Assembly: GCA_022072085.1 (NCBI GenBank)
Contig: JAJVII010000070.1
Location: forward strand, 1-55,719
DNA length: 55,719 nt
From: Phycisphaerae bacterium
Lineage (GTDB): Bacteria > Planctomycetota > Phycisphaerae > JAJVII01
Direction: 5' to 3'
The notes beneath the pieces were generated by a model. The model searched no databases, had not been told where the DNA came from, and saw nothing but the letters and a program-made list of their open reading frames with translations. This document shows positions 51,270 through 54,843 of the stretch, in pieces. A program made the translations under genes and the position numbers. How positions within the stretch are numbered: position 1 is the first letter of the stretch; every line of letters starts with the position of its first letter.

Positions 51270-51570
51270 GGTGGTCTCCCTCGATCAGGTGGATGGGGTC
51301 GGATTCTTGCTCCGCAACCGCCTGCATACCCCTCCGGGCCCGGTTTGTCCACCCCCTTGCATTTCTCCGCGGGGGCAAACGCAAAGTTATGAACGCAGAG
51401 GCAGAGCATTTTTCATAATTCAGTTCGCCGCTGAGGCGCAGAGGCGCTGAGAGAAAGGATTTGGAGCAAGACCGGCATCGGAGGAAACAAGAATATTCCG
51501 ATGCGAGGCCTTTCACAAATCCTTGTCCCTCTGCGACTCAGCGCCTCAGCGGCCAACTATGAAAAGTCCT

Positions 51571-51695: not shown

Positions 51696-51720
51696 GGTTT
51701 CTCCGCGGGGCCCGGCGGGC

Positions 51721-51770
51721 GTTGCCGGGAATCAACATTGGGCGGTCCGGGTGTTGCCGGAAATCAACAC
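51721..51770. promoter_or_regulatory. Paired upstream dyads (candidate activator sites) for PEP-CTERM gene 1
   Basis: GTTGCCGGGAATCAAC (51721-51736) and GTTGCCGGAAATCAAC (51753-51768; extended dyad GTGTTG...CAACAC 51751-51770). The centres are 32 bases apart, about three helical turns, so two dimers could bind on one face of the DNA. They lie about 120-160 bases before a sigma-54 promoter, the usual place for bacterial enhancers. Confidence 0.6.
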
Positions 51771-51887
51771 GACCAGCCGGCCGGGGGCGCCCGGCCTCGG
51801 CAGGCGTACGGTATTTTGGGTCCCAAGCCTCGGCCAGCTACGGCCTTACGCGGGTCCGGCCCGTTCCCTGTCAGGCGGAGCCCCCTC

Positions 51888-51903
51888 TGGCATGCCATTT
51901 GCA
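51888..51903 (+). promoter_or_regulatory. Sigma-54 promoter of PEP-CTERM gene 1
   Basis: TGGCATGCCATTTGCA: -24 GG at 51889-51890 and -12 GC at 51901-51902, the exact spacing required by RpoN. ATG 51988 is 84 bases downstream. Confidence 0.75.
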
Positions 51904-51987
51904 GGAAAATCAGACAGAGCCTAGCCGGCTCGCACGTCTTTGCGTCCCGGAGAGAGAAGCCGCCTCGTCTTTGAAAGGGTCAGTCAG

Positions 51988-53103
51988 ATGAACAGGACGC
52001 TTGCACTGGCCATCGGCCTGTCGCTGCTGGCGGGGTTGGCCGCCCCGTCCTACGGCGATCCGCTGACGCTGAACTACCTCGGGTCGATCGACGTGGCCAA
52101 TCCGCAGTCCGACCCCGGGGCGCTGGTCCAGGACTACTACGTCAACAACGCCGCGTTCGTGCCGGGCGGCAACACGCGGCCGGGCTACGGCTCGGCGCTG
52201 TCGGACCCGACGATCATCCTGCGCTGGGGATGGGCCGGGCACACGATCGAATACAGCCTCGCCGGCGTCACGCCCAAGATCACGGGGCTGGACACCGTGC
52301 ACGCCATCAGCAACGCCAACGGCGGGACGGCCTACGGCGGGATCAGCCCCGACGTGGTGGACGCCGACGGCAACTTCTTCACGACGGCCAACGGGGCGGG
52401 CGCCAGCGGCAACAACCCGGGCAAGGCCCCCGGCGCTCTGGGCGGGACCAGCGCCCCCTATGCGACGTTTGCCACCGGCTGGGCCAAGGCCGGATACTAC
52501 TCCGACTCGGTCACGCTGCGGCTGGGCGACGGGTCGGGCGGCGACCTGCCGACGGCGGCCGGCACTGCCGGCACGACCTACCTGGTCGTCGGCGAGGATG
52601 ACGGGCAAATCGGCTACGGCTACGGCACGCGCATCGTCGCCCAGAGCGTCGACAACGGCGACGGCACGGTGAGCGGCTCAGAACTGTTCCACTTCTCCAG
52701 CGACGGCAGCGTCCACTTCGACACGTCGATTCAGTACATCCGGGCCGTCGACGGCACGGAGTACATCATGCTCGCCCGCAAGGGCGTCTCCAAGAGCGGC
52801 TTCACCCTGTATTTCTACGACCCGGCCACCGCCAGCGGCCTGGACCCGACACCCGTCGCGGCCATCGACATCGACGCGCTGATCGCCGCCGGCGCCGGCT
52901 GGCGCGACGCGTCCCGCCCCGGCATGGGCATCGCGGTGGACTTCGCCAACAACACGATCTACGTCGCCGAGAACGCCGCCAACGTTTCGCGGCTGCACGT
53001 GTTCGAACTGGAAGGCTCGCCCGTCCCCGAGCCGGCGACCCTGGCGCTGCTGGCCATCGGCGGAATGGGCCTGCTCTCCGCCCGTCGCCGTCGCAGCCGC
53101 TAG
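51988..53103 (+). CDS. PEP-CTERM sorted exported protein
   Basis: 371 residues. Signal peptide MNRTLALAIGLSLLAGLAAP followed by SYG; the C-terminus is the PEP-CTERM sorting signal: VPEPATLALLAIGGMGLLSA followed by RRRRSR, that is PEP motif, one membrane helix and a basic tail, recognised by an exosortase. The middle (about 350 residues) is rich in Gly, Asp and Thr and beta-prone, with no cysteine and no recognised catalytic motif (GWAGHTIEYSLAGVTPKITG, EDDGQIGYGYGTRI). Such proteins are found in biofilm matrix or on the surface. It has a sigma-54 promoter, and its last 61 bases before the basic tail match the neighbouring gene exactly. Confidence 0.92.
   Translation: MNRTLALAIGLSLLAGLAAPSYGDPLTLNYLGSIDVANPQSDPGALVQDYYVNNAAFVPGGNTRPGYGSALSDPTIILRWGWAGHTIEYSLAGVTPKITGLDTVHAISNANGGTAYGGISPDVVDADGNFFTTANGAGASGNNPGKAPGALGGTSAPYATFATGWAKAGYYSDSVTLRLGDGSGGDLPTAAGTAGTTYLVVGEDDGQIGYGYGTRIVAQSVDNGDGTVSGSELFHFSSDGSVHFDTSIQYIRAVDGTEYIMLARKGVSKSGFTLYFYDPATASGLDPTPVAAIDIDALIAAGAGWRDASRPGMGIAVDFANNTIYVAENAANVSRLHVFELEGSPVPEPATLALLAIGGMGLLSARRRRSR
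53024..53084. repeat. PEP-CTERM tail sequence, identical copy 1
   Basis: These 61 bases are identical to 54764-54824, in codons for the sorting signal of two otherwise unlike genes. Confidence 0.9.
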
Positions 53104-53206
53104 CGCCCAGGCCGGCGACACGCTCCATTTCAGCGCGTTGCCTTCACGGGCATTCCCAGCATCGTCTCGCCCATCCTCAAGAGCCGCACGCTGACGCCGC
53201 GGCCGC

Positions 53207-53256
53207 GTGTTGCAGAATCGGGACACTGGGCGAGCCGGTTGTAGCGGAAAAGCAAC
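53207..53256. promoter_or_regulatory. Paired upstream dyads for PEP-CTERM gene 2
   Basis: GTGTTGCAGAATCGGGACAC (53207-53226) shares the GTGTTGC...ACAC frame with the site at 51751-51770; a second dyad, GTTGTAGCGGAAAAGCAAC, lies at 53238-53256. Centre distance about 31 bases, about 110-160 bases before the sigma-54 promoter, mirroring the arrangement before gene 1. Confidence 0.5.
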
Positions 53257-53366
53257 AATTGTTATCTGCCACAGGGTCGCGGGCCCTCCAGCTTGTTGTT
53301 TGCAAGATAAGCACGAATAAGTGGTTGTATAATTCCCCCTGGTGGTCATGTGCTGATGCACGAATC

Positions 53367-53382
53367 TGGCACGGCTTTTGCA
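53367..53382 (+). promoter_or_regulatory. Sigma-54 promoter of PEP-CTERM gene 2
   Basis: TGGCACGGCTTTTGCA matches the consensus TGGCACG-N4-TTGCA exactly; GG at 53368-53369 and GC at 53380-53381. ATG 53437 is 54 bases downstream of its end. Confidence 0.85.
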
Positions 53383-53436: not shown

Positions 53437-54843
53437 ATGAAGCGCATACTGTTGCTGGCCCTGGTGCTGGGTATTTCCCCTGCGATTTCGCAGGCGGCTG
53501 TGCTGGACGCGACCACCAGCCTCAACCTGCTTGCCAATCCGATACCGCTGGCCGGGGGGACGCAGAACGTCACCGCCAACGGGTCAGGCGTTTACGACTT
53601 CGCCGACCGCAACGGCGACGGCACGACGGGCGACGCGGTCGCTCCGGGCGGCCTGTCGCTGGGCGGCTTCGCGCTGACCACCGACGACTCGACGGCGATC
53701 AAGTTGAGCCTAAACGGCGGAAGCATCACCGGCAACTCGGGAATCGCTGGAATCTCCACTTACCGCAACCTCGGCGGCAGCGCCGTTGGCGGCGCGACTG
53801 GCGCCGTCACCATCACCAACGCAGGCAATCTGGCCCTGGGCGTCATCAACACCGCCCGCCGCTCCACCAGCACCAGTTCGCCGGGGGCCCCCAATACCGT
53901 CGGCAGCATCACCATCGGCGAGGTCGCCAGCCGCGTCGGGGACGTTCGGGTGGACGCCCTCTACGCCGCCAACTACAACACGGCCGACTCGGCCAACGGC
54001 TATACCTACAACAAGACCAGCGGCGGCAACGTGACGATCTACGGCAGCGGCGACGTGCTGGTCAAGGACAGCGTCGGCACCTATGGCAACATCGTGACCT
54101 GGTCACACGGCGCTCAGTCGGGGCTGATCACCGTGAGTCACGACGGCGGTTTTGCCGCGGCCGGGCTGCTGGCGACGGCCGGGGGCGTCTATGGAACCAC
54201 CGGCAAGGCCAAGGGCGCGAGCTTCAACGGCGACGCCAACTTGGACGGCGCCGACGGCGACTTCTACGTCGCCGGCGACGTGCTCTTCGCCCAGGTCCGC
54301 CTGACCTACGGCGACCCCAACGGCAACATCACGATTACCGGCTACCGGAACGTCACCATCGGCGGCAAGATCGAGACTTATCATGCCAGCTCGCAGTACA
54401 CCGACAACAACGCCGGCAGCCTGATCGTGACGGCGGCGGGCAACATCGTCCTGGACGGCGCCATCGACATGCACGTCTCCAACGCCAGTGCCGTCGCCGG
54501 GACGCTGGACCTGGCCGCCGGCGGGACGATCACCCTGAACGACCTGAACCTGGCGCTGCTGAAGCAGGCCAAGCTTGGCGCGGCCACCAGCCACATCAAT
54601 GGCGTCCTGAGCGGCTTCGCCGGCGACAACGACCCCAGGCTTCGCACCTACCTTGGCGGGACGGTCATCTACGACCCGTCCGTCCAGACCGATCCGCTGC
54701 TCCAGGGCCAGAGCTACAGCTTGCTGGACTTCGGCGGCAATCCGACCGGGTTCCTCGTCCCCATCCCCGAGCCGGCGACCCTGGCGCTGCTGGCCATCGG
54801 CGGAATGGGCCTGCTCTCCGCCCGCCGCCGTCGCCGCCGCTGA
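53437..54843 (+). CDS. PEP-CTERM protein with beta-helix-like repeats
   Basis: 468 residues, AGAGGTG before the start. Signal peptide MKRILLLALVLGISPAISQA; C-terminal sorting signal IPEPATLALLAIGGMGLLSA plus RRRRRR. The body is a series of Gly/Asn-rich strands (GGNVTIYGSGDVLVKD, NGNITITGYRNVTIGGKIET, GSLIVTAAGNIVLDGAID) like a parallel beta-helix of the adhesin or haemagglutinin type. Near residues 265-285 GDANLDGADGDFYVAGDVLF resembles half of a dockerin calcium loop (D-x-N-x-D-G). Probably a matrix or surface adhesin. Regulated by sigma-54 with the gene before it. Confidence 0.92.
   Translation: MKRILLLALVLGISPAISQAAVLDATTSLNLLANPIPLAGGTQNVTANGSGVYDFADRNGDGTTGDAVAPGGLSLGGFALTTDDSTAIKLSLNGGSITGNSGIAGISTYRNLGGSAVGGATGAVTITNAGNLALGVINTARRSTSTSSPGAPNTVGSITIGEVASRVGDVRVDALYAANYNTADSANGYTYNKTSGGNVTIYGSGDVLVKDSVGTYGNIVTWSHGAQSGLITVSHDGGFAAAGLLATAGGVYGTTGKAKGASFNGDANLDGADGDFYVAGDVLFAQVRLTYGDPNGNITITGYRNVTIGGKIETYHASSQYTDNNAGSLIVTAAGNIVLDGAIDMHVSNASAVAGTLDLAAGGTITLNDLNLALLKQAKLGAATSHINGVLSGFAGDNDPRLRTYLGGTVIYDPSVQTDPLLQGQSYSLLDFGGNPTGFLVPIPEPATLALLAIGGMGLLSARRRRRR
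54764..54824. repeat. PEP-CTERM tail sequence, identical copy 2
   Basis: Identical to 53024-53084 over 61 bases; after that the two genes differ only at single bases up to the stop codon. Confidence 0.9.

Follow-up and report, generated by a model that had tools for sequence, protein, structure and literature searches.

A sigma-54 enhancer code for PEP-CTERM genes, with a candidate activator, is predicted in the Planctomycetota; judged from the DNA sequence it is sound, and broader than first noted. The window analysed here, that is the whole stretch of 55,719 nucleotides from contig JAJVII010000070.1 of a Phycisphaerae bacterium, carries two genes which very probably belong to a sigma-54 PEP-CTERM regulon, their upstream dyads being paired sites of an NtrC-type response regulator encoded on contig C56 of the same genome.

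Gene 1 encodes a PEP-CTERM protein of 371 aa (51988..53103, forward strand, ATG at 51988), with an alternative longer reading from a TTG start at 51940, and gene 2 (53437..54843, forward strand) encodes one of 468 aa. Both products possess a C-terminal match to PF07589 (27.4 and 25.5 bits, respectively) above the cut-off of 20.7 bits. Each gene is preceded on its own strand by a sigma-54 -24/-12 promoter, namely TGGCATGCCATTTGCA at 51888..51903 (26.3 bits) and TGGCACGGCTTTTGCA at 53367..53382 (23.4 bits), which bears out an earlier note on this DNA in its reading of two PEP-CTERM genes under sigma-54 promoters. Two dyads lie ahead of each promoter, all on the forward strand, and were scored with a matrix trained on the genome. 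For gene 1 these are a distal dyad GCGTTGCCGGGAATCAACAT (51719..51738, 19.5 bits) and a proximal dyad GTGTTGCCGGAAATCAACAC (51751..51770, 23.2 bits), at -167 and -135 from the sigma-54 element, and for gene 2 an imperfect distal dyad GTGTTGCAGAATCGGGACAC (53207..53226, 13.5 bits) at -158 and a proximal dyad TTGTAGCGGAAAAGCAACAA (53239..53258, 17.3 bits) at -126. The pairing described in the earlier note holds with regard to position, and the dyad starts are 32 bp apart in both pairs. The note needs correcting with regard to the gene 2 dyads (GTGTTGC...GGGACAC and TTGTAGC...GCAACAA), which are imperfect and neither of which has a complete GTTG...CAAC. A long imperfect inverted repeat (GCCGCTGAGGCGCAGAGGCGC ... 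GCGACTCAGCGCCTCAGCGGC) also precedes the gene 1 dyads, at 51420-51570. Five copies of the repeat's core, CTCAGCGCCTCAGCGG, were identified in the 570 kb of sequence fetched from the genome, making it a small repeat element.

The promoters are distinctive within the window itself. The pattern TGGCAYN5TTGCA has just two matches across its 55.7 kb, these being the two promoters, compared to 0.02 expected, and none of 100 shuffles reached two. With the genome-trained matrix, the four dyads are the only sites of at least 13 bits in the window, and the reversed window has one. For the strict dyad GTTGN8CAAC, two were found against 0.56 expected, and 11 of 100 shuffles reached two, which is not significant in the window alone; the case for the dyads therefore rests on their recurrence across the genome. 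There, the tandem form GTTGN8CAAC-N8..22-GTTGN8CAAC occurs in 15 places, the gene 1 pair being one of them, and the reversed pattern in none, and it is this that lends the window dyads their significance.

The assembly (5.49 Mb in 72 contigs) has 75 PF07589 matches, one exosortase and one rpoN. The strict sigma-54 pattern TGGCAYN5TTGCW has 74 sites in the genome, compared to three in the control. About 570 kb was fetched around all 74 of these sites, the 75 PEP-CTERM matches, the 15 tandem pairs and the activator genes. An iterated dyad matrix built from 85 sites gave the consensus RTGTTGM-N6-KCAACAY. This matrix was trained on sigma-54 upstream regions of the same genome, making the counts from this genome partly circular; the regulator relatives and other genomes discussed below are independent of that training. 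The earlier note had named the absence of dyads before other sigma-54 or PEP-CTERM genes as evidence against its proposal. Instead, 35 of the 75 promoter zones of PF07589 genes have a sigma-54 site together with a dyad at -200..-95, a further 13 have the promoter only (48 of 75 with a sigma-54 site) and 27 have neither. The promoter-dyad pair was found in 0 of 75 zones in each of the opposite-strand, reversed and complemented controls, and in 0 of 3000 shuffles (40 per zone). Genes in the set which lack the elements may in some cases have mis-called starts, be internal to operons or sit at contig ends, and some of the PEP-CTERM genes probably do not belong to the dyad regulon.

The 74 strict promoters form an unbiased set for the association with PEP-CTERM genes. 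Of these, 43 have a dyad, at least 31 of them ahead of PEP-CTERM genes and 12 not so scored, some of the latter through frame and length limits of the gene caller; among the 31 without a dyad, 10 are PEP-CTERM promoters and 21 are not (P=0.0009). Across all fetched stretches, a set enriched by choice, there are 63 dyad promoters (48 PEP-CTERM) and 37 dyad-less promoters (11 PEP-CTERM). These 11, without a dyad of at least 13 bits, include C2:1385, C8:153413, C9:70312 and C10:29866; some have degenerate dyads and others may answer to another activator, and no common inverted repeat was seen among them by eye as a second shared motif. Dyads are absent from the sigma-54 promoters of genes resembling groEL, dnaK and hsp20, and the promoter of a flagellar gene has a single weak match of 9.6 bits, these names being our own reading of the translations. 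With no dyad pair at any of these promoters, the dyad is not a standard component of sigma-54 promoters in this genome.

The dyads are also ordered with respect to the promoter. The 1 kb stretches preceding the 74 sigma-54 sites contain 41 strict dyads in total, and 38 of these are at -190..-95. When only the closest strict dyad is taken for each of 28 promoters, the positions group around -104, -115, -126, -136, -147, and -158, giving a period of 10.6 bp and a phase which one in 20000 uniform draws over the same range equalled in strength; the limits of -190..-95 were set post hoc and the uniform null was drawn inside them, so the test informs on phase and not on distance. For 92 dyads called with the matrix, R was 0.61 at 10.5 bp. 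The spacing of 45 neighboring dyad pairs is 31-33 bp in 34 cases and 21-22 bp in nine, with two other values occurring once each. From about -75 to -40 there is an A+T-rich stretch (about 0.6, compared to 0.3 further upstream). Phase, spacing and this stretch are together the expected look of paired sites for a putative looping activator.

The candidate regulator gene (C56:18657-20033, reverse strand) overlaps a PAS histidine kinase gene (C56:20023-21216, reverse strand), whose product is a PAS-HisKA-HATPase protein. The regulator is modular in structure, possessing in order a receiver domain (PF00072), an AAA+ sigma-54 activator domain (PF00158) and a Fis-type helix-turn-helix (PF02954). Residues D10, D11, D54, T82, and K104 and the G.FTGA loop are invariant in five relatives. 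A scan with TIGR02915 found 13 activator-domain regions in the genome, along with one receiver-only match. In the 12 of these activator regions scanned for dyads of at least 15 bits, such sites were mainly at C56, C18 and C37; C17 and C9 had one weak site each. The strongest, at 28.7 bits, lies 46 bp ahead of the C56 operon, where no sigma-54 element was seen. The C56 regulator, encoded together with its PAS kinase, is the likely activator. With regard to the search for a PrsR-like activator proposed in the earlier note, an NtrC-type candidate was found, but it falls below the PrsR cut-off.

Other genomes have comparable arrangements. In a genome of the same family (G294), the equivalent operon has a 28.0-bit dyad in the corresponding place and adjoins PEP-CTERM and PilZ genes, each with a dyad and a sigma-54 element. 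In three genomes of another class (G010, G080, and G098), full-length relatives of the C56 regulator have 51-53% identity and an identical recognition helix, and three of the four tandem dyad sites there are near a PEP-CTERM gene with a sigma-54 element; at the fourth, the sigma-54 element stands before a gene cut by the contig end. A 23.7-bit dyad lies 88 bp ahead of the kinase gene in G098, the contigs of G010 and G080 ending before that region. Tandem-dyad matches in two further genomes (G203 and G227) have no sigma-54 element or PEP-CTERM gene nearby and were set aside as chance.

A wider set of 80 relatives of the C56 regulator (59-85% identity) comes nearly entirely from MAGs named as Phycisphaerae or other Planctomycetota. 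By tblastn, 73 of the 80 have the kinase upstream of the regulator, and in 68 of these operons a dyad of at least 15 bits occurs within 700 bp ahead of the kinase, the other five being without one. In six of the seven relatives lacking the kinase, a dyad precedes the regulator by 127-220 bp, and the seventh has only 214 bp of upstream sequence. Overall, 74 of the 80 loci have a dyad in front of the operon or the regulator; these loci were chosen by regulator likeness, are related by descent and do not represent 80 independent events. Dyad density is 2.14 per kb in the upstream windows compared to 0.034 per kb elsewhere in these loci, and dyads of at least 15 bits number 155 in total against 10 in the reversed sequences. 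The conserved dyad ahead of the C56-type operon is strong footprinting evidence for a predicted autoregulation, and the pattern across the 80 loci ties the dyad motif to the C56-type regulator as its predicted site. In plasmids, tblastn with the regulator returned only general activators of less than 60% identity. The view of the earlier note, in which an activator uses the dyads as enhancer sites, is supported by how often they recur, by their placement ahead of sigma-54 promoters, by their helical phase and by their conservation elsewhere, and its candidate recognition sequence for Planctomycetota can now be written as RTGTTGM-N6-KCAACAY, a predicted site which recurs across the genome and is conserved in others.

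A mechanism may be proposed from the features which the sequence itself provides, these being the dyad sites, their recurrence and phase, their link to PEP-CTERM genes and their conservation ahead of the kinase-regulator operon. Each promoter would be served by two upstream activating sites, palindromes of 20 bp separated by two or three turns of the helix and facing the same side of the DNA with respect to the -24/-12 element. Dimers of the C56 response regulator would bind these dyads and, upon phosphorylation, oligomerize on the paired sites. The oligomer would then loop over the A+T-rich stretch and open the RpoN-polymerase complex, with the G(S/A)FTGA loop of its AAA+ domain predicted to contact sigma-54. 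The regulator would also bind ahead of its own operon.

It is improbable, though worth considering, that the dyads are enhancers of another activator of this genome and that the C56 operon is merely one target. The genome has at least 12 further sigma-54 activators besides C56, and those to be considered are the receiver-less C18:38591-39514, the GAF-containing C37:23955-24956 and the paralogs on C36 and C66. C18 is preceded by a sigma-54 promoter with dyads at -139/-117, a dyad promoter follows closely after C37, and both arrangements are kept in G294; moreover, dyads ahead of the kinase gene would be equally expected if some other protein bound them. However, searches for C18 and C37 relatives in G010, G080, and G098, where not all activator genes were recovered, gave only general activator matches (about 42-53%, in the shared core). 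It is the C56 regulator which has full-length relatives with an identical recognition helix in those three genomes, where dyads accompany PEP-CTERM genes, and across its 80 relatives the dyad tracks the C56-type operon. The regions of C36 and C66 have no dyad of at least 15 bits. The two response-regulator activators encoded there (C36:52067-53467 and C66:5122-6522) share 89% identity and represent a recent duplicate; among the activators recovered from G294, G010, G080, and G098 they have no close relatives.

Less probable still is a repressor or DNA-architecture protein which binds the dyads and merely co-occurs with sigma-54 promoters, activation coming from elsewhere. The C56 operon, having no visible sigma-54 element, could accommodate a dyad serving in repression, but the distance of -104 to -170, the two-site spacing of two or three turns and the phase with the promoter are traits of enhancer sites, and the heat-shock-type and flagellar sigma-54 promoters described above have no dyad pair. 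An artifact of chance or base composition has a negligible probability: two strict dyads are unremarkable within the window taken alone, but chance is excluded by all of the genome-wide and cross-genome controls.

The PrsK-PrsR system of Zoogloea-type bacteria, to which the earlier note drew a parallel, resembles the present one in function, with a two-component NtrC-family activator, sigma-54 promoters, a dedicated upstream site and scattered PEP-CTERM genes. The parallel does not extend to membership, the likely activator here being an NtrC/AtoC-like regulator distinct from PrsR, which has a kinase, a motif and a spacing of its own. PrsR itself was considered as the activator and is ruled out by score, recognition helix and the missing TTTACA motif. 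Against a TIGR02915 (PrsR) cut-off of 502.6 bits, the best of the 14 matches in the genome reaches 418.3 bits (418.7 with hmmscan), compared to 585.1 bits for the PrsR of plasmid pDVUL01 used as control. The cut-off of TIGR02916 (PrsK) is 300 bits; the C56 kinase is far below it, with 80 families matched and TIGR02916 absent from the top 25 (the 25th scoring 88.5 bits), and the G098 kinase scores 91.0 bits. The C56 regulator has 38% identity to the pDVUL01 PrsR, and their recognition helices differ (INRTTLYKKIR vs. VSRPTFYDLLR). TTTACA was found 32-92 nt before the sigma-54 motif in two of 63 dyad promoters and in one of 26 dyad-less promoters of non-PEP-CTERM genes. The sites differ likewise, RTGTTGM-N6-KCAACAY being usually paired at -104 to -170 and the proteobacterial site being a 17-nt motif ending in TTTACA, about 63 nt upstream. 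Among the species examined in the study describing it, this proteobacterial motif is stated to be common to Proteobacteria only (Haft 2006, PMC1569441).

With regulators of the NtrC/AtoC/ZraR type, the C56 protein shares the order of receiver, sigma-54 activator and Fis-type helix-turn-helix domains as well as a predicted autoregulatory site. Its top NCBIfam match is AtoC at 479.6 bits against a cut-off of 714, and no equivalog cut-off is exceeded among the matches shown. It differs from these regulators in that its predicted regulon is large and composed of genes for exported proteins. DVUA0057 of Desulfovibrio vulgaris, a response regulator, is recorded by DAP-chip as binding ahead of five PEP-CTERM genes (PMC3333781, PMC4641369), much as is proposed here. 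The regulator of the related plasmid pDVUL01, taken as the DVUA0057 counterpart, is a true PrsR by score, unlike that of C56. Seven upstream regions on pDVUL01 have no dyad of the RTGTTGM-N6-KCAACAY type, and the strict sigma-54 pattern was not found in the 400 bp before annotated starts; the plasmid is used here solely as a reference against which to judge the regulator and the absence of the dyad. A PilZ gene is found beside PEP-CTERM genes on pDVUL01 also. These comparisons suggest more than one origin for the control of PEP-CTERM genes by sigma-54.

The strict pattern of promoter plus dyad was found in 81 of 397 genomes of the class, with the control column summing to six by our own reading. 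The genome of the window has 37 matches, G294 has 12 and the others mostly have one to three. Inspection of 30 loci in comparison with these two genomes identified as targets a PilZ gene, a gene for a protein of 83-102 residues, PEP-CTERM genes and a stretch before a thiE-like gene; two of the 30 (L305 and L307) have no dyad of at least 13 bits and are probably chance matches, and others have in part weak promoters. The PilZ-type gene with promoter and dyads (C9:13781; L199:831-1255 in G294; L310, L312, L322, and L323) has its dyads at -159/-127 in both this genome and G294. The small protein (C37:25461; L200:2289-2592 in G294; L309 and L311) carries the stretch KYLxFDLEATRRENxYLRxMLE and has no Pfam match, nor a phage match by tblastn; its promoter and dyads (-158/-126 here and -159/-126 in G294) are conserved across families. 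A receiver-less sigma-54 activator (C18:38382-39538; L215:3430-4585 in G294) follows a sigma-54 promoter whose two dyads, spaced by 22 bp, are at -139/-117 in this genome and at -126/-104 for its G294 relative. In both genomes the next gene, which is receiver-like, has a sigma-54 site and no dyads. The position of the C18 activator behind a dyad promoter suggests a possible cascade.

The stretch before the thiE-like gene encodes an apparent structured RNA of about 135-165 nt (family f106; L313-L329, e.g., L314:1666-1855, forward strand), with a sigma-54 promoter and two dyads upstream and a terminator with a GGAGGA loop at its end. Its 25 pairs in three helices are paired in 90.1% of cells, compared to 38-55% when slid, and 10 pairs are changed on both sides compared to a shuffled mean of 4.8. 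No match to Rfam 15 was found at the gathering threshold in 14 loci. Of 397 genomes searched with a model of the sRNA, 36 have it, 35 belonging to f106 and one to f111, the genome of the window having none. Of 30 model loci, 25 have a sigma-54 element ahead of the RNA core and every one of these also has a dyad, the usual positions being about -230 and -137; in the remaining five no element was found by the scan pattern used. The 14 sequences of the model were preselected by the promoter pattern and independent support comes from G411, G589, G613, and G643, four genomes found by the model only which have the promoter; three others found in this way (G515, G450, and G489) are without it. From the GGAGGA loops, it may be guessed that this sRNA titrates CsrA.

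Studholme and Dixon reportedly carried out an in silico study of Pirellula activators. In the literature searched, most subscription journals lying outside it, no prior description of dyad and sigma-54 control of planctomycete PEP-CTERM genes was found. A search combining PEP-CTERM, Planctomycet and sigma-54 returned only PMC1569441, one for Phycisphaer response regulators with PEP-CTERM returned none, and that for planctomycete small RNAs and RpoN apparently has nothing on the f106 sRNA at the level of titles. Planctomycetota genomes can hold dozens of PEP-CTERM genes, and the sole published cis-code found is proteobacterial. With a predicted recognition sequence, regulator-kinase pair, spacing rule and list of target promoters now given, what switches on exosortase cargo outside the Proteobacteria becomes a directly testable question, and an sRNA family without an Rfam entry is exposed under the predicted dyad and sigma-54 switch. 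A wider and rather doubtful proposal is that this two-component system, mostly restricted to the Planctomycetota, is the master switch of a surface-life program, governing PilZ as a reader of c-di-GMP, a small protein of unknown fold, a second activator in a cascade, dozens of PEP-CTERM proteins in one family and, in a sister family, the sRNA possibly titrating CsrA. If true, a single system, assembled separately from the proteobacterial PrsK-PrsR, would connect matrix attachment with c-di-GMP and post-transcriptional control.

A further sRNA candidate is present in the genome of the window at C30:65524, where a sigma-54 promoter with dyads at -147/-115 is followed by a stretch of about 70 nt with a terminator-like hairpin at its end. 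By our own reading of the sequence, it is convergent with the end of a glmS-like gene.
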